Shown here piece by piece: positions 24,011-31,874 of a stretch of 64,000 nt of DNA (positions are counted from its first letter, which is position 1; every line of letters starts with the position of its first letter). This stretch comes from Flavobacterium cheniae (GTDB taxonomy: Bacteria; Bacteroidota; Bacteroidia; Flavobacteriales; Flavobacteriaceae), in contig NZ_SNZC01000001.1 of NCBI RefSeq assembly GCF_004363695.1, positions 556,431 through 620,430 on the forward strand. The letters are read 5' to 3'. The notes below the pieces were generated by a model. The model saw nothing but the letters and a program-made list of their open reading frames with translations. It made no database searches and had not been told where the DNA came from. The position numbers and the translations under genes were made by a program.

Positions 24011-24955
24011 TTATTTTTTTGCAGGTTCTGCAACTTTTGTTGAATCTACAACAGCTTCCGCTGCTGGTTTAGCTTCTGCAGTTTCTTTCCAAACTTCTCC
24101 TTCTGCTGCTTTTGCACCAGCAGGTTTAGTTCCTTGTAATGTTAAAATATAACTTGATACACTTTGAATATCTGTAGAAGATAAATTTCCTTTCCAAGCT
24201 ACCATTGAAGGGTTGTTTTTACTTCCTTCAGAAATTAACTTGAAGATATTTTTAATTCCTCCACCATTAATCCAATGCTCATCTGTTAAGTTTGGTCCCA
24301 CTAAACCTCCACCATCTGCTTTGTGACAAGCAGCACAAGCGTTTGTGAAAATTTCTTTTCCTTTAGCTAAGCTGGTGGCATCAGTTACAGCAACAACGGT
24401 TTCGTAACTTACTTCATCTGCAGCGCTTTTTGGTAGTTTAGATTTCTCTAATTCTGCTAACGCTACTTCATTTTTAAATTCTTGTTCTTGATCGTATTCG
24501 TTCATCACGTGGAAACGAACCATATAAACCAATGCAAAAATAATTGTACCATAGAATAAATATACCCACCATGGTGGTAACACATTGTCTAACTCTTTGA
24601 TACCATCGTAATCATGATCTAACATAATGTCTTCCTCTCTTTCCATTTCTTTAGAACGAGTCAATTTGCTTACTATGTTTTGATACCATTTACTTTCTGT
24701 AAAAGAAACTGATTGAGCATTTGCTAATTGTTGCTTTTGTTCGTCTGTTAGTAAATGATAGGTAACTTTATCAACAGCATCGATTACGATTTCGATTGCT
24801 ATTAACAAAAATAGGAATACGCCTAAAAACAAAGCTACCATAGGAAACTTTATGAATGCTGGCCTGTCTCCTGAATCGATAAAATATTCCAATGCTGCAA
24901 AAACGAATGCAAACAGTAATGGAACTCTTACGTATGATGGAATTAATTTTTTCAT
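24011..24955 (-). CDS. ccoP: cbb3-type cytochrome c oxidase subunit III (CcoP), mono-haem form
   Basis: 314 residues from the start at 24955; an in-frame extension to 25012 would cross a hairpin and adds no conserved sequence. There are hydrophobic helices at about 8-28, 32-55 and, after a linker, the CcoP N-terminal domain helix P-P-W-W-V-Y-L-F-Y-G-T-I-I-F-A (about 130-150). One cytochrome c domain follows with haem-binding C-A-A-C-H (about residue 210) and an M-V-A-W-K-G Met ligand region. Canonical proteobacterial CcoP has two haem c sites; only one CxxCH is present here. The Ala/Lys-rich tail is low complexity. It transfers electrons to the CcoNO core. Confidence 0.95.
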   Translation of the reverse strand: MKKLIPSYVRVPLLFAFVFAALEYFIDSGDRPAFIKFPMVALFLGVFLFLLIAIEIVIDAVDKVTYHLLTDEQKQQLANAQSVSFTESKWYQNIVSKLTRSKEMEREEDIMLDHDYDGIKELDNVLPPWWVYLFYGTIIFALVYMVRFHVMNEYDQEQEFKNEVALAELEKSKLPKSAADEVSYETVVAVTDATSLAKGKEIFTNACAACHKADGGGLVGPNLTDEHWINGGGIKNIFKLISEGSKNNPSMVAWKGNLSSTDIQSVSSYILTLQGTKPAGAKAAEGEVWKETAEAKPAAEAVVDSTKVAEPAKK

Positions 24956-24987
24956 ATTAAGAAAGTTTAAATTTTTAAAAGAATCTG

Positions 24988-25019
24988 AACAACTATGAAT
25001 ATAAAGCTTCATAGTTGTT
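24988..25019 (-). repeat. 12-bp perfect inverted repeat in the ccoQ-ccoP gap
   Basis: Arms AACAACTATGAA and TTCATAGTTGTT surround an 8-base loop. No T run follows in the transcribed direction, so it looks more like an mRNA processing or stabilising hairpin than a terminator. It sits between ccoQ and ccoP. Confidence 0.7.
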
Positions 25020-25222: not shown

Positions 25223-27394
25223 TTATTTTTTAACTTGAGTATCTGTACCTAATCTTTGTAAATAAGCAATAAGTGCTACAATTTCTCTATCTTTTAATGG
25301 AGACGCTGTTTCATTTCCGAATGATTTCTTAATATCAGGATTTGCTAATAAATTAGTTTCAATTTTAGTAGCTTGTTCATCCATATGTTTAAGTGCATTG
25401 TTAATTTCAGCTTCTGAATAAGGAACACCTAATGTAACCATGGCTTTCATTTTATCTTGAGTAGATGATTTATCCAACTCATTTTTAATTAACCATTGGT
25501 ATCTTGGCATAATCGATTTCTCATTTAAACCTTGAGGATCATACATGTGGTTAAAATGCCATACGTCATCTCTACCTCCATTAAAAGGTTTTCCTTTAAC
25601 ACCTTCACGAGCTAAATCTGGTCCAGTACGTTTAGAACCCCATAAGAATGGATGGTCGTAAACGAATTCTCCTGCTTTAGAATAATCTCCATAACGTTCC
25701 ACTTCTGAACGGAACGGACGAACCATTTGAGAGTGACATCCCACACAACCTTCACGGATATATAAATCTCTACCTTCTAATTCAAGAGGTGTGTATGGTT
25801 TTACTGCTGATATTGTTGGAATATTTGATTTTACTAAAATCGTTGGTAAAATTTGGATTAAACCACCAATTAAAATAGCAACTGTAGTCAATAACATGAA
25901 TTGAACTGGTTTTCTTTCTAACCAAGAGTGTAATTTTTCACCTTTTAAACGGTTTGGAGAAATTACAGCTAAAGCTGGAGCTTCTACTAATTCGTTTTCT
26001 ACTGGAGAACCTTGTCTAACGGTTCTAATAATATTGTAAACCAATACGATAACTCCTGTAAGATATAAAGTTCCACCCACAGCACGCATCCAATACATTG
26101 GCATTAGTTCGGTTACTGTTTCAAGGAAGTTTCCGTATTGTAAAGCACCACCGTCTGGTTTAAATTGTTTCCACATAGAAGCTTGAGTAAATCCAGCAAC
26201 ATACATTGGAAGCGAATATAAAATAATACCTAAAGTACCAATCCAGAAATGGAAATTCGCTAATTTCTCAGAGAATAATTTCGTTTTTGTCATTCTTGGG
26301 ATTAACCAATAGATCATACCAAATGATAAGAAACCATTCCAAGCTAAAGCTCCAACGTGAACGTGAGCAATAATCCAATCCGTAAAGTGAGCAATAGCGT
26401 TAACGTTTTTTAATGATAACATTGGACCTTCAAAAGTTGCCATACCATAACCTGTAATAGCTACAACGAAGAATTTCAATACTGCATCTGTACGTACTTT
26501 ATCCCAAACACCTCTTAATGTTAATAATCCATTAATCATACCTCCCCAAGATGGAGCAATCAACATTACAGAGAAAACAACTCCTAAGTTTTGAGCCCAA
26601 TCAGGTAAAGCAGTATATAATAAATGGTGAGGTCCAGCCCAAATGTAAATAAAGATTAACGACCAAAAGTGAATAATTGATAATCTATATGAGTACACTG
26701 GACGATTTGCTACTTTTGGAACAAAGTAATACATCATACCTAAGAAAGGAGTAGTTAAGAAAAATGCTACCGCATTGTGTCCATACCACCATTGTACTAA
26801 AGCATCTTGAACACCAGCATAAACCGAATATGATTTCATTGCTGAAACTGGTAATTCTAAACTGTTAAAGATGTGAAGAACTGCAACCGTAACAAACGTA
26901 GCGATATAAAACCAAATAGCTACATAAATATGACGTTCTCTTCTTTTAATAATGGTTCCAATCATATTGATACCAAAAACTACCCAAATAAGAGCAATTG
27001 CAATATCAATTGGCCATTCTAATTCAGCGTATTCTTTTGATGTAGTAAAACCTAATGGTAATGAAATTGCTGCAGCAACAATAATTAATTGCCATCCCCA
27101 AAAGTGAATTTTACTTAAAAGGTCGCTAAACATTCTTGCCTTTAATAAACGTTGCATCGAGTAATAAATACCGGCAAACATTGCATTACCAACGAAGGCA
27201 AAAATTACCGCATTGGTGTGTAAAGGTCTTAAGCGTCCAAAACTTAAAAACGAAACGCCGCTCGTTAAGTTTGGAAACAAAAATAGGAAAGCTAAAATAA
27301 GCCCTACTAACATCCCCACTACTCCGAAAACGATACTAGCGTAGATGAAATTCCTTACAATTTTGTTGTCGTAATAAAATTGTTGCTTCTCCAT
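25223..27394 (-). CDS. ccoNO: Fused cbb3 oxidase subunits I and II (CcoN-CcoO)
   Basis: 723 residues. Residues 1 to about 470 are the 12-helix CcoN haem-copper subunit: R-P-L-H-T-N-A (low-spin haem His), W-Y-G-H-N-A-V-A-F and G-P-H-H-L-L-Y-T (CuB ligands), and W-I-I-A-H-V-H-V-G-A (haem ligands). After a linker and a further helix (about 500-520) comes the CcoO cytochrome c domain with E-G-C-V-G-C-H-S-Q-M-V-R-P and G-P-D-L-A-R-E-G, and the I-M-P-R-Y-Q-W Met ligand. The N-O fusion is usual in Bacteroidota and makes one polypeptide of the core. It reduces oxygen at low concentration and pumps protons. The ccoS gene lies 4 bp upstream. Confidence 0.97.
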   Translation of the reverse strand: MEKQQFYYDNKIVRNFIYASIVFGVVGMLVGLILAFLFLFPNLTSGVSFLSFGRLRPLHTNAVIFAFVGNAMFAGIYYSMQRLLKARMFSDLLSKIHFWGWQLIIVAAAISLPLGFTTSKEYAELEWPIDIAIALIWVVFGINMIGTIIKRRERHIYVAIWFYIATFVTVAVLHIFNSLELPVSAMKSYSVYAGVQDALVQWWYGHNAVAFFLTTPFLGMMYYFVPKVANRPVYSYRLSIIHFWSLIFIYIWAGPHHLLYTALPDWAQNLGVVFSVMLIAPSWGGMINGLLTLRGVWDKVRTDAVLKFFVVAITGYGMATFEGPMLSLKNVNAIAHFTDWIIAHVHVGALAWNGFLSFGMIYWLIPRMTKTKLFSEKLANFHFWIGTLGIILYSLPMYVAGFTQASMWKQFKPDGGALQYGNFLETVTELMPMYWMRAVGGTLYLTGVIVLVYNIIRTVRQGSPVENELVEAPALAVISPNRLKGEKLHSWLERKPVQFMLLTTVAILIGGLIQILPTILVKSNIPTISAVKPYTPLELEGRDLYIREGCVGCHSQMVRPFRSEVERYGDYSKAGEFVYDHPFLWGSKRTGPDLAREGVKGKPFNGGRDDVWHFNHMYDPQGLNEKSIMPRYQWLIKNELDKSSTQDKMKAMVTLGVPYSEAEINNALKHMDEQATKIETNLLANPDIKKSFGNETASPLKDREIVALIAYLQRLGTDTQVKK

Positions 27395-27398
27395 AAAA

Positions 27399-27593
27399 TT
27401 AGATTGATTTTTGTTTTTCTGTTTGTATTATTTTGTTAGGATTCTCTTTTACAATTTCATCGTCAAATAACATTCTGACTGATGGCGTGTAGTCATCATC
27501 ATATTGGCCACTTTTAACTGCTTTTATAAAAGCAATCAAAAAAGCTATAGCAACTACTATACTGATCGTGATTAATAAATAAATGACACTCAT
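27399..27593 (-). CDS. ccoS: cbb3-type oxidase assembly protein CcoS
   Basis: 64 residues: N-terminal transmembrane helix (about 3-25), then G-Q-Y-D-D-D-Y-T-P-S-V-R-M-L-F-D-D, the conserved CcoS segment. CcoS is needed to insert cofactors into cbb3 oxidase. It is the first gene of the ccoS-NO-Q-P transcript, preceded by a -7 box and a candidate Fnr-type site. Confidence 0.92.
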   Translation of the reverse strand: MSVIYLLITISIVVAIAFLIAFIKAVKSGQYDDDYTPSVRMLFDDEIVKENPNKIIQTEKQKSI

Positions 27594-27610
27594 ACCTTAA
27601 ATTGTGTTAA

Positions 27611-27639
27611 CAAAGTTACTTGTACTCCTTTTTATAAAA
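27611..27639 (-). promoter_or_regulatory. Promoter of the ccoS-NO-Q-P operon
   Basis: On the minus strand a perfect TAnnTTTG -7 box (TAACTTTG, 27611-27618) is preceded after 17 bp by only a weak -33 box (TTTT), which overlaps the edge of the dyad at 27639-27656. A poor -33 box next to a regulator site suggests an activator-dependent promoter. Confidence 0.65.
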
Positions 27640-27656
27640 CATGACTTTTATCATGT
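27639..27656. promoter_or_regulatory. Candidate Fnr/Crp-family binding site upstream of ccoS
   Basis: Perfect dyad ACATGA-N6-TCATGT. The geometry (TGA-N6-TCA) is that of Crp/Fnr-family sites. If transcription starts 5-6 bases past the -7 box, the centre lies near -41.5, the classical class II activator position. Confidence 0.6.
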
Positions 27657-27675: not shown

Positions 27676-30063
27676 TTACTTCTTACTAGCGTACCAATTT
27701 GTCATAATTGTTACAAAACTTACAATAGTTATGGTGCTCAATGGCATGATGATAGCTGCAACAATTGGATCTAATTTACCTGTAATTGCATAACTCAATC
27801 CTACTACATTATATAATAAGGACAAACCAAAACTCATATAAATGGTCTTCATAGCGTTTTTAGAATAGCGCATATAAAAAGCAATCTTATCAAATTGTGA
27901 TGCGTCTAAAATTCCATCACAAGCTGGCGAAAAAACATTTACGTTTTCTGATATAGACAATCCTAAATTACTTTGAGCTAAAGCTCCAGCATCGTTTAAG
28001 CCATCGCCGACCATCATGACGTTTTTACCTTCATTTTGTAATTGTTCGATGTATTGAAGTTTTTGCTCTGGTTTTTGATTGAAAACTAAAGTGGTTTTTG
28101 CTGGCAACATTTTTTCTAATATACTACGTTCGCCATCATTATCGCCTGATAAAACCACTAAATTATAATGCTTCGCTAAATCATCAAATAATTGCTCTAA
28201 ACCTTTTCTGTACTGATTATTGAATACGTAACTTCCTTTATAAATACCATTGATTTCAACATGCACTTTGGTTTTCTTATGCGTGTTTTCGGTCATGGTT
28301 TTTAGGAATTGAGAGGAACCTAATTTTACTGTATTGCCATCGATTTCCGCAAAAATTCCTTTTCCGATAATTTCTTCGAAGCTTGAAGTTTCGATTTTGT
28401 CTTGGTTGGGAATAAATTCATACAATCTTCTACTTAAGGGATGATTCGAACCTCGTAAAACGTTTTTCAATAATTTTAATTCGGTTGGATTTAATTCGGT
28501 TCCTTCGTATGTAATTGCGGTTTTTTTATTGGTCGTAATCGTTCCTGTTTTATCGAAAACAATGGTATCTACTTTAGCTAATTGTTCGACTACCAAAGCG
28601 TTCTTTAAATATAACTTTCGATTGCCTAATATTCGTAACACATTTCCCAATGTAAACGGAGCCGTTAATGCCAACGCACACGGACAAGCCACAATTAAAA
28701 TCGCAGTAAAGACATTAAAAGCTGTGGTAACATCAATAAAAACCCAATAAATAAAGGAAACAACTGACAAAGCCAGTAAAGCCGGCGTAAAATAACGACT
28801 AATTCTATCCGTAATGTTTTTGTGTTGTTGTTCTACTCGTTTTTGGAAGACATCGTTGCTCCATAATTGAGTCAAGTAACTATTTGAAACCGAAAATAAA
28901 ACTTCCATTTCAATGACTTTTCCCATTTGTTTTCCTCCTGCGAAGACTTTATCTCCTGATTTTTTCTCAATCGGAACAGCTTCACCAGTAACAAAACTAT
29001 AATCAATAGAAGCTTTTTCGGAAATTAAAATCCCATCAACCGGAATTAATTCTTGATTTCGAATCAATAATCTGTCGCCTTTTTCAATATCATAGACTTG
29101 AACTGATTCTTCTTCTCCATTTGGTAATATTTTTGTGATGGCAATTGGAAAATACGATTTATAATCTCGCTCAAACGAAAGGAAATCGTATGTTTTCTTT
29201 TGGAATAACTTTCCTAATAACATGAAGAAAATCAATCCTGCCATACTATCGAAAAAGCCTTGACCGTAATCGAAAATAATATCGACCGTACTTCTTACGA
29301 ACATGACTACAATTCCTAAAGCAATTGGAATATCAATGTTCAACAAACCTGATTTCATGCTTTTCCAAGCGGAAACATAATAACCAGAAGCCGAATAAAT
29401 AAACGTAGGAAGCGATAATCCGAAAATCAACCAACGGAAAAATCCTCGGTATTGATCAATCCAATATTCTTCTACTTCAAAATATTCGGGAAACGAAAGC
29501 AGCATGATATTTCCGAAACAGAAAAACGCTACTCCTATTTTATAGATTAAACTTCGGTCAATTTTTTTCTTTCCTTCATCAAAATTTTCTAAACTGATGT
29601 AAGGTTCATAACCAATTGAACTCAATAAGTAAACGATATCTTTTAAAGAAGTTTCTTCGGGATTAAACGTAACACGGACTTTCTTTTCGCCAAAGTTAAC
29701 TTGAGAAGTACTTATTCCTGGTTGAAGTCTTTGTAGATTTTCCAGAATCCAAATACACGAACTACAGTGTATATGAGGAATGTAGAGTGAAACAATATGT
29801 GTTGTACGCTCTTGGAATTCCAATAGTTTTGAAACAATTTCTTCATTGTCTAAAAAGTCATATTTGCCCTGAATGTCTTGTGGAGTGGCGCCGGGTGCTG
29901 CCTGAAAGTCGTAATAACACGTTAAATCATTTTGACTAAAAATTTCGTACACGGTTTTACAACCATTGCAACAGAACTTCTTGTTGTCAAATAGAATCTC
30001 GTCTTTTTTTATAATTTCATTACCACAATGGAAACAATTTTCTGTGTCCATATATTTGCTCAT
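27676..30063 (-). CDS. ccoI: Copper-translocating P-type ATPase (CcoI-like) with N-terminal zinc-ribbon
   Basis: About 795 residues. The N-terminus has paired cysteines (C-F-H-C-G and F-C-C-N-G-C), then an HMA domain with H-C-S-S-C (about residue 100), transmembrane helices, C-P-C-A-L-A (ion-binding CPC motif), the phosphorylation motif D-K-T-G-T-I-T and M-V-G-D-G-L-N-D-A. This is the FixI/CcoI type of Cu-ATPase, which exports copper needed to load CuB of cbb3 oxidase, and its placement beside ccoS supports that. The start at 30063 (M-S-K-Y-M-D) is chosen over a longer reading; 30051 is also possible. It is transcribed toward ccoS and divergent from the Crp/Fnr gene. Confidence 0.93.
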   Translation of the reverse strand: MSKYMDTENCFHCGNEIIKKDEILFDNKKFCCNGCKTVYEIFSQNDLTCYYDFQAAPGATPQDIQGKYDFLDNEEIVSKLLEFQERTTHIVSLYIPHIHCSSCIWILENLQRLQPGISTSQVNFGEKKVRVTFNPEETSLKDIVYLLSSIGYEPYISLENFDEGKKKIDRSLIYKIGVAFFCFGNIMLLSFPEYFEVEEYWIDQYRGFFRWLIFGLSLPTFIYSASGYYVSAWKSMKSGLLNIDIPIALGIVVMFVRSTVDIIFDYGQGFFDSMAGLIFFMLLGKLFQKKTYDFLSFERDYKSYFPIAITKILPNGEEESVQVYDIEKGDRLLIRNQELIPVDGILISEKASIDYSFVTGEAVPIEKKSGDKVFAGGKQMGKVIEMEVLFSVSNSYLTQLWSNDVFQKRVEQQHKNITDRISRYFTPALLALSVVSFIYWVFIDVTTAFNVFTAILIVACPCALALTAPFTLGNVLRILGNRKLYLKNALVVEQLAKVDTIVFDKTGTITTNKKTAITYEGTELNPTELKLLKNVLRGSNHPLSRRLYEFIPNQDKIETSSFEEIIGKGIFAEIDGNTVKLGSSQFLKTMTENTHKKTKVHVEINGIYKGSYVFNNQYRKGLEQLFDDLAKHYNLVVLSGDNDGERSILEKMLPAKTTLVFNQKPEQKLQYIEQLQNEGKNVMMVGDGLNDAGALAQSNLGLSISENVNVFSPACDGILDASQFDKIAFYMRYSKNAMKTIYMSFGLSLLYNVVGLSYAITGKLDPIVAAIIMPLSTITIVSFVTIMTNWYASKK

Positions 30064-30104
30064 TTTACCTAAGCACAAATTTCTTACTTCGTGGCAAAAC
30101 AAAA

Positions 30105-30120
30105 TATGATAATTGTCATA
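30105..30120. promoter_or_regulatory. Candidate Fnr/Crp-family binding site between ccoI and the regulator gene
   Basis: Imperfect dyad TATGATAATTGTCATA (14 of 16 bases symmetrical) with the same ATGA-N6-TCAT core as the site upstream of ccoS. It lies in the divergent gap and just upstream of the regulator's -7 box, so it could mediate autoregulation and control of ccoI. Confidence 0.55.
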
Positions 30121-30127
30121 CTTTGTT

Positions 30128-30135
30128 TATATTTG
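30128..30135 (+). promoter_or_regulatory. -7 box of the Crp/Fnr regulator gene
   Basis: TATATTTG fits TAnnTTTG, 25 bp before the ATG. No good -33 box is present at the usual distance; the dyad at 30105-30120 occupies that region. Confidence 0.5.
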
Positions 30136-30160: not shown

Positions 30161-30838
30161 ATGAGTAAATGCGAACAATGTATTGTGAGGCAATTTAGTT
30201 CATTAAAAGCCTTAAATAAAGAAGAATTGCTACGCATGGCCGATTGCAAAACATCTTATACCATAAAAAAAGGCGAACCTATTTTTGAAGAAGGTGAAGT
30301 AACCAATGGTATTTATTGTATAAAAGACGGAATTTGTAAATTATCTAAGTTAAGTGATAACGGAAAAGACCAAATTGTAAAACTAGTAAAACCAGGAGAA
30401 TTGCTAGGACAACGCTCAATGATTAGCGACGAACCTGCCAATTTAAGTGCCGTGGCGCTTGAAGACATGGAAGTTTGTTTTATTCCAAGAAGTGAAGTCA
30501 TGCAGTTTTTTAATCAAAATAATCAGTTTTCGATGAATGTGATGCGTACCATTTGCGACGATTTAAAAGGAGCCGATGATCACATGGTGAATATGGCGCA
30601 AAAAACCGTTCGCCAACGTTTAGGTGAAACTTTGATTTACTTAGAGGACACTTTTGGCAAAAACGAAGATGGCTCATTACACATTCAACTATCCAGAGAA
30701 GAATTAGCCGGAATGATTGGCACCGCAACTGAAAGTTGTATTCGATTGTTATCTGAGTTAAATAAATCAGGTTATATTGAGTTAACGGGTAAGAAGATTA
30801 CACTGTTAGATAAAAATAAATTAAAACGATTAACATAA
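30161..30838 (+). CDS. Crp/Fnr family transcriptional regulator
   Basis: 225 residues: cyclic-nucleotide-binding-type beta barrel (about 20-125), dimerisation helix and C-terminal winged helix-turn-helix with L-S-R-E-E-L-A-G-M-I-G-T-A-T-E-S-C-I-R-L-L-S. Cysteines at positions 4, 7, 29, 53, 59 and 106 are notable: the N-terminal C-x2-C with a further Cys recalls the [4Fe-4S] site of FNR, though spacing differs from E. coli. It is divergent from the copper ATPase of the cbb3 locus and is probably the oxygen- or redox-responsive activator of that locus. A terminator follows. Confidence 0.9.
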   Translation: MSKCEQCIVRQFSSLKALNKEELLRMADCKTSYTIKKGEPIFEEGEVTNGIYCIKDGICKLSKLSDNGKDQIVKLVKPGELLGQRSMISDEPANLSAVALEDMEVCFIPRSEVMQFFNQNNQFSMNVMRTICDDLKGADDHMVNMAQKTVRQRLGETLIYLEDTFGKNEDGSLHIQLSREELAGMIGTATESCIRLLSELNKSGYIELTGKKITLLDKNKLKRLT

Positions 30839-31562: not shown

Positions 31563-31874
31563 ATGCCAAATAAAAATGAGAAAGAAAGGCGCAAAATAAT
31601 TGTTAAAGAATTAAGATTAAAAGCAAAAAATGAATTTGAAAATAAACTTCCAATTAGTAGAGATTATTTTCTAAATCTATTTAATTATTTAGATGAAGAA
31701 CTTTCAGAAAATGAATGTGATCATAATTTAGAATTTACCATTAATTTTCTTAATTCTCAAAACATAAAAAATATAAACAAAGTAACAGATTGGCTTAAAG
31801 ACAATGGAGGTTACTGTGATTGTGAAGTTATTGCAAACGTGGAGGAAATGTTTGATGAAGATGCAATTTTATAA
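31563..31874 (+). CDS. DUF2695 domain protein
   Basis: 103 residues. The pattern C-D-H-N-L-E-F-T-I-N-F-L followed by W-L-K-D-N-G-G-Y-C-D-C-E-V-I-A-N-V marks the DUF2695 family; the Cys/His set could bind a metal, but this is not established. Function unknown. It lies 89 bp after the toxin gene and before a terminator, so it may be co-transcribed with the toxin-antitoxin pair. Confidence 0.78.
   Translation: MPNKNEKERRKIIVKELRLKAKNEFENKLPISRDYFLNLFNYLDEELSENECDHNLEFTINFLNSQNIKNINKVTDWLKDNGGYCDCEVIANVEEMFDEDAIL

Follow-up and report, generated by a model that had tools for sequence, protein, structure and literature searches.

The nearest described relatives of the system considered here are Crp/Fnr-type regulators. 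The half-site read by CRP is GTGA, and the known DNR/NNR sites are of the TTGAC type, both differing from the ATGA half-site found here. In the Bacteroidota, the −33 box of sigma-A promoters has the consensus TTTG; promoters that depend on an activator usually have a weak −33 box. For E. coli FNR, the half-site is TTGAT (TTGATGTACATCAA in PMC4214427), and the cluster ligands are C20, C23, C29 and C122, as given in the available text of that paper. A homologue from a Flavobacteriales metagenome-assembled genome was grouped near MalR, with carbon sensing as the predicted function, in the accessible part of PMC8510549.

The cco locus of Flavobacterium cheniae resembles the FF-41.5 promoters of E. 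coli and A. fischeri FNR in the fold of the likely regulator, in the TGA-N6-TCA core of its site and in the centre of this site at −41.5. It differs from E. coli FNR in having ATGA rather than TTGAT and a promoter of the Bacteroidota −7 type. With the DNR/NnrR-type regulators, which are Crp/Fnr proteins acting at nir, nor and nos promoters, the likeness is that a second Crp paralogue of this genome, at C1:410 kb, is situated in such a cluster. E. coli CRP and the MalR-type Crp proteins of Bacteroides share with the present system the Crp/Fnr fold and the N6 spacing, but not the ATGA half-site or the respiratory targets. No earlier report of the motif was found in a full-text literature search; since most subscription journals are outside its coverage, an earlier description is possible.

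The window, that is, the whole analysed stretch of 64,000 nucleotides, contains on the minus strand ccoP (24011–25012) and the ccoNO fusion (25223–27394, COX1 and FixO), both assigned by domain matches, ccoS (27399–27593, a profile match to FixS, PF03597) and the gene of a ccoI-type P1B copper ATPase (27676–30063). The start of the latter is taken at the ATG at 30063–30061, the list of open reading frames having it at a TTG at 30102. On the plus strand, at 30161–30838, lies the gene of an FNR-like Crp/Fnr regulator of 225 aa, the proposed reader of the two dyads described below.

The first dyad, ACATGACTTTTATCATGT (ACATGA-N6-TCATGT), occupies positions 27639–27656, with the core 14-mer at 27641–27654, between the end of ccoI (27676) and ccoS, and is the proposed activator site of ccoS-ccoNO-ccoP. 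It is perfect, as had been claimed in the preliminary description, with zero mismatches, and is the sole exact copy in the window. Along the minus strand, the core 14-mer (27654–27641) is followed by one base, the tetranucleotide TTTT, 17 bases, the box TAACTTTG (27618–27611) and the ATG of ccoS at 27593. The box matches TAnnTTTG, the −7 element of the Bacteroidota sigma-A promoters. At the place of the −33 box TTTG, there is TTTT (27639–27636, positions −33 to −30), retained in relatives, the first T of which also forms the final base of the 18-mer. The start-site map of F. psychrophilum puts TAnnTTTG at −12 to −5 (available text of PMC9723704); with this placement, transcription is predicted to start at 27606 on the minus strand, and the dyad centre, 27647.5, falls at −41.5, as in class II Crp/Fnr promoters, given this inferred +1. 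Thus the weak −33 box next to the dyad, the perfect −7 box downstream of it and the centre near −41.5, all proposed from inspection of the letters, are retained.

The 18-mer dyad is expected on average 0.017 times per window in Markov resamples of the window. Relaxed patterns behave differently: with at most two mismatches, the 18-mer pattern has four matches in the window against a shuffle mean of 4.11, and ATGA-N6-TCAT, with a chance expectation of about two per window, has a further match at 31711. Hence the case for the cco dyad is made by its exactness, its spacing to the −7 box and its conservation, and not by the loose dyad. The frequency of the loose pattern is the one point in favour of a chance palindrome, an explanation whose probability we regard as negligible, as it is contradicted by the rarity of the 18-mer and by conservation, 46 of 48 cco loci having a dyad in which one or both half-sites are ATGA.

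Out of the loci of the 49 closest relatives (L047–L095), these 48 could be tested. Two ATGA half-sites are seen in 34 of them, one in 12 and none in two (L075 and L089); at the 12 loci with a single ATGA, the other half is CTGA in eleven and TTGA in one. The result that the preliminary description named as refuting it, a lack of enrichment of the motif upstream of cco in relatives, is therefore not what these counts show. In the alignment of 47 anchored cco promoters (46 relatives and the window), TANNTTTG is found exactly 22 nt after the 14-mer in 33 and TANNTTTA at the same gap in nine more, which upholds the proposed Crp/Fnr activator geometry; in the remaining five the box is altered or shifted. 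The frequencies of T in the four columns of TTTT at −33 to −30 are 0.98, 0.94, 0.87 and 0.91. The rows of this alignment were chosen for TGA-N6-TCA with at least one ATGA half, 230–335 nt before ccoN, and those columns are conserved by construction; the count excludes 31 loci (L096–L126) and L084, which has no upstream sequence. Judged by exactness, spacing and conservation, the cco dyad is a genuine site of the class II Crp/Fnr type, and it is conserved.

The loci L096–L126, seen unfiltered, include some with ATGA or tandem dyads and several with none. The cco loci of Pedobacter, Mucilaginibacter and Sphingobacterium mostly have a GTGA half-site, from which a −7-like box is about 44 nt away, and also a TCA[TC] half-site 22 nt downstream. 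Promoters of this Sphingobacteriales type (L096, L105, L106, L112, L115, L118, L122, L124, L125, and also L117, titled Flavobacteriaceae) have a dyad with the GTGA half-site 44–45 nt before the −7-like box, the centre being at about −63.5, and most have in addition TCA[TC] 22 nt downstream. At L101, L107 and L120 there are two dyads 22 nt apart.

The position of the cco dyad, 19 nt past the ccoI stop and with TTTTA next on the minus strand, could also be that of an intrinsic terminator or an RNA hairpin at the ccoI end, in which case it would not be a protein site at all. However, the 6-bp stem has only two G-C pairs, and the dyad is absent from the list of terminator-like sites, produced by a scan that requires three such pairs. 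Moreover, in 12 of 46 relatives a non-ATGA first half stands opposite TCAT, so that the outer pair is broken, and the same dyad recurs at promoters of the genome itself with a gap of 21–23 from the −7 box. Because of the weak stem, the asymmetric variation of the arms and the recurrence at promoters, this explanation was rejected as highly improbable.

Genome-wide, ATGAYNNNNRTCAT has 30 occurrences against 20 for the reversed-pattern control. The dyad alone, being so near background, is weak and was rejected as evidence; the discriminating feature is its spacing to the −7 box. The dyad with TANNTTTG located 5–30 nt downstream has 11 matches in this genome (one in the control), six of them with the total length 44. 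Among the 26 dyads examined out of the 30, 13 have NNNNTTTG at a gap of 21–23 in at least one direction, while each of the 14 other three-gap bins contains from zero to three of the 26. Relaxing the outer base at the exact spacing (TGANNNNNNTCA) yields 10 matches against two control ones, the base after TCA being T in seven and G in three. Over ten genomes of the genus, that of the window included, the same pattern gives 85 matches (control 8), and the base after TCA, counted by eye, is T in 52, G in 17, A in 10 and C in six.

Eleven of the 13 dyads with the gap of 21–23 precede genes of respiration, denitrification, haem synthesis, Rrf2 regulators, a desaturase, the second Crp or an unnamed gene of the denitrification cluster. 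The predicted target promoters are those of ccoS; ccoI and the fnr-like gene; nirK; RIC with a norC-like gene; the unnamed gene of a 602-aa protein that belongs to the denitrification cluster; a cytochrome c gene preceding nosZ; the gene of the second Crp; two genes of Rrf2 regulators, of which one adjoins another norC/norB-like pair and the other lies beside nrdD and a radical-SAM gene; hemN, together with a thioredoxin; and a fatty-acid desaturase. The remaining two dyads belong to a DUF465 gene and to a short doubtful ORF on C6. The scores of nirK, RIC, nosZ, hemN and nrdD are above the NCBIfam cut-offs; the names norB, norC, norQ, norD and nadA/nadB were assigned by eye, and the norB-like protein has only a COX1 match. 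Both hemN and the anaerobic ribonucleotide reductase are known FNR targets, and the targets predicted here are similar.

The denitrification cluster (L027/L028, G000:C1, about 386–421 kb) comprises nirK, whose product carries a cytochrome c domain, as well as RIC, norC/norB/norQ/norD-like genes, a Sec-type nosZ, the gene of the second Crp and two of the Rrf2 type, and is followed by the anaerobic ribonucleotide reductase. It carries seven promoter-placed ATGA dyads and one more within the nosZ ORF. The 602-aa protein encoded behind one of the dyads (L027:18060–19868) has no match in NCBIfam or Pfam at E 0.001.

The suggestion that the half-site represents a distinct specificity is supported at the level of the family. 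In 149 family genomes, 823 ATGA dyads (control 96) are situated upstream of TANNTTTG, compared to 265 TTGA dyads (control 97). Among the matches listed, 107 of 150 ATGA and 29 of 150 TTGA dyads have the length 44, where a flat spread would give about six. In the genome of F. cheniae itself, there are no TTGA dyads with TANNTTTG versus the 11 ATGA ones, and TTGA was rejected as its half-site. Some family genomes have a group of TTGAYnTAGGTCAA-like dyads with this spacing of 44 bases, which suggests a further regulator of the Crp type. In the phylum sample, the exact 44-base arrangement is present in all 13 genomes of the window's order (60 sites), taken as Flavobacteriales from the flavobacterial assignment of the nearest named cco loci, and, outside the order, in eight of 105 genomes (11 sites, one in the control). 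The cco dyad very probably controls the cbb3 oxidase within an order-wide regulon.

The product of the fnr-like gene is a member of the Crp/Fnr superfamily: it consists of a cNMP-binding domain (PF00027, 79.3 bits) and a Crp helix-turn-helix domain (PF13545, 60 bits), and Crp/Fnr chains are matched over nearly the whole structural model. The mean pLDDT of the latter is 84.2 (from a 26-row alignment), residues 1–6 being below 50. The closest solved structure in the model search is 2gau of P. gingivalis (Z 27.5, rmsd 1.5, 214 aligned residues, 29% identity), and residues 3–225 of the model align with residues 19–243 of A. fischeri FNR, 5e44 (Z 23.2, rmsd 2.9, 220 aligned). All 64 distinct orthologues have the recognition-helix signature GTA[TV]E[ST]xIR, with G187, T188, A189, E191, I194 and R195 invariant.

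Four cysteines, C4, C7, C53 and C106, are also invariant in 64 of 64. By profile offset (3–224 to 19–242), C4, C7 and C106 correspond to C20, C23 and C122 of E. coli FNR, in which respect the two proteins are alike. They differ in that the place of C29, residue 13, is N in 44, S in 19 and T in one of the 64 orthologues and never Cys, while C53 is an additional invariant cysteine; position 29 in the numbering of the window protein is occupied by Cys in 48 of the 64. This suggests rearranged cluster ligands, with C53 as the obvious candidate for the fourth. Three features tested for FNR proper are lacking: the equivalent of C29, the TTGAT half-site (TTGA has no matches against 11 of ATGA in this genome, and 265 against 823 in the 149 family genomes) and a sufficient score with the NCBIfam Fnr model, 85 bits against the cut-off of 228. 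Hence the protein, although it would act in an FNR-like way, is not classed as FNR proper; its departures from the canonical FNR mean that the name needs qualifying. The sites, their spacing and conservation, the target genes and the conservation of the helix and of the cysteines were all computed.

Many families of regulators use palindromes of such size, and a dimeric regulator unrelated to Crp/Fnr might use this one, possibly as a repressor site. However, the TGA-N6-TCA core and the position at −41.5 are typical of Crp/Fnr proteins (for the FF-41.5 consensus, see the available text of PMC4214427), and it is a Crp/Fnr gene with a conserved helix that adjoins, which makes an unrelated regulator quite implausible.

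A second dyad, ATGATAATTGTCAT, missed in the preliminary description, is situated at 30106–30119 and is common to the divergent ccoI and fnr-like promoters. Towards ccoI, at a distance of 22 nt, there is a −7-like box GAAATTTG (30076–30083, minus strand), which places the dyad centre at −41.5; the box lacks a T of TAnnTTTG, the same as in most relatives. Towards fnr, a perfect −7 box TATATTTG (30128–30135, plus strand) begins 8 nt from the dyad, so that the centre is at −27.5 and the core promoter is overlapped. Of 36 relatives, all but L053, L055 and L103 have a TGA-N6-TCA dyad upstream of fnr (33 of 36). On the ccoI side, TTTG at a gap of exactly 22 is seen at 29 of 34 dyad-bearing loci, only one of the 29 having the complete TAnnTTTG, and TAnnTTTG at a gap of 8–10 on the fnr side is seen at 18 of 37 loci, the window included (both counted by eye). 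This arrangement suggests that one site serves both for ccoI activation from −41.5 and for fnr autorepression from −27.5, since a protein centred at −27.5 would presumably block the fnr promoter. At L059, L061, L064 and L068 the fnr-ward box is at a gap of 22 and not 8–10; hence the autorepression would not be universal.

As to the identity of the reader, the 89 family genomes with an orthologue of the FNR-like protein (at least 41% identity) have on average 7.1 sites and one of them has none, whereas the 60 genomes without an orthologue have on average 3.2 and 17 have none, a comparison uncorrected for genome size, kinship and the presence of cco. Four orthologue-bearing genomes have zero or one site. 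On the other hand, at least five sites are found in 15 of the 60 genomes without the orthologue, and a single regulator for every ATGA site of the family was therefore rejected. In 13 of these 15 there is a full-length fusion of a receiver domain with Crp, and all 16 fusion helices read from them have the form E[ST]xIR. Thus the family has candidate readers other than the FNR-like protein, and the receiver-Crp fusions of relatives, having the same helix, may read the same site. Fusions composed of the receiver, cNMP-binding and Crp helix-turn-helix domains, about 352 aa long, were observed at L167–L179 and L182–L184, and also at L053:2751–3809.

Within the genome of F. cheniae, the alternative is that the site is indeed of class II Crp/Fnr type but is read at cco chiefly by another Crp, for example the C1:410 kb paralogue in the denitrification cluster, which, having no CxxC, would respond to NO or some other signal rather than to oxygen. 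The helix of this paralogue, RVETVIR, has Ile at the same position (GLRVETVIR), an ATGA dyad precedes its own gene and six more are promoter-placed in the denitrification region of about 33 kb, and, as noted above, many sites are possible in genomes without the Fnr orthologue. However, the neighbour of ccoI is the FNR-like gene and not the paralogue, the dyad lies between the two in most relatives tested, and genomes that have the Fnr orthologue carry more sites. We consider the paralogue an unlikely main reader, although it may share the same sites.

Hence the preferred reading, which we hold to be likely, is that the cco dyad is the class II binding site of a homodimeric Crp/Fnr-type activator with a distinct half-site specificity, most likely the FNR-like protein encoded at 30161–30838. 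At low oxygen, this protein would bind ATGAY-N4-RTCAT centred at −41.5 and adjoining the poor −33 element TTTT, and would recruit RNA polymerase with the Bacteroidota sigma-A to the TAnnTTTG −7 box, leading to the production of ccoS, ccoNO and ccoP, that is, of the cbb3 oxidase. On the twin dyad at 30106–30119, it would activate ccoI from −41.5 and at the same time cover −34 to −21 of the fnr promoter, so that fnr would be repressed. Binding, activation, autorepression, the oxygen signal, the iron-sulphur cluster and the role of Ile194 are the parts that we infer. The preference for ATGA over TTGA comes perhaps from Ile194, which by profile offset occupies the place of Ser212 of E. coli FNR, a residue that we take to have a role in half-site recognition. 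The FNR-like reading is supported by data on F. psychrophilum, where under oxygen limitation the cbb3 oxidase is strongly up and the haem-biosynthesis enzymes are up too; neither Fnr nor Crp was found in the main text of that paper in its available form (PMC9723704).

A wider scheme is put forward more tentatively, as one that we would not yet favour over its negation. It holds that the low-oxygen and denitrification programme of the Flavobacteriales would be run by their own FNR analogue, an iron-sulphur sensor with C4, C7, C53 and C106 as ligands, C53 replacing Cys29, and with ATGA recognised via Ile194. A single dyad would serve to activate ccoI from −41.5 and to silence fnr from −27.5, and receiver-Crp fusions with the same helix signature would substitute for the regulator where it has been lost.

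For the biology of the order, the finding provides a low-oxygen regulon that spans the order and can be tested, in a phylum that has its own promoter type, and points to a likely regulator of denitrification genes, among them nosZ, which represents an N2O sink. It also offers a natural experiment in how the half-site preference of Crp/Fnr proteins shifts between ATGA, TTGA and GTGA, and perhaps in how the cluster ligands shift too.
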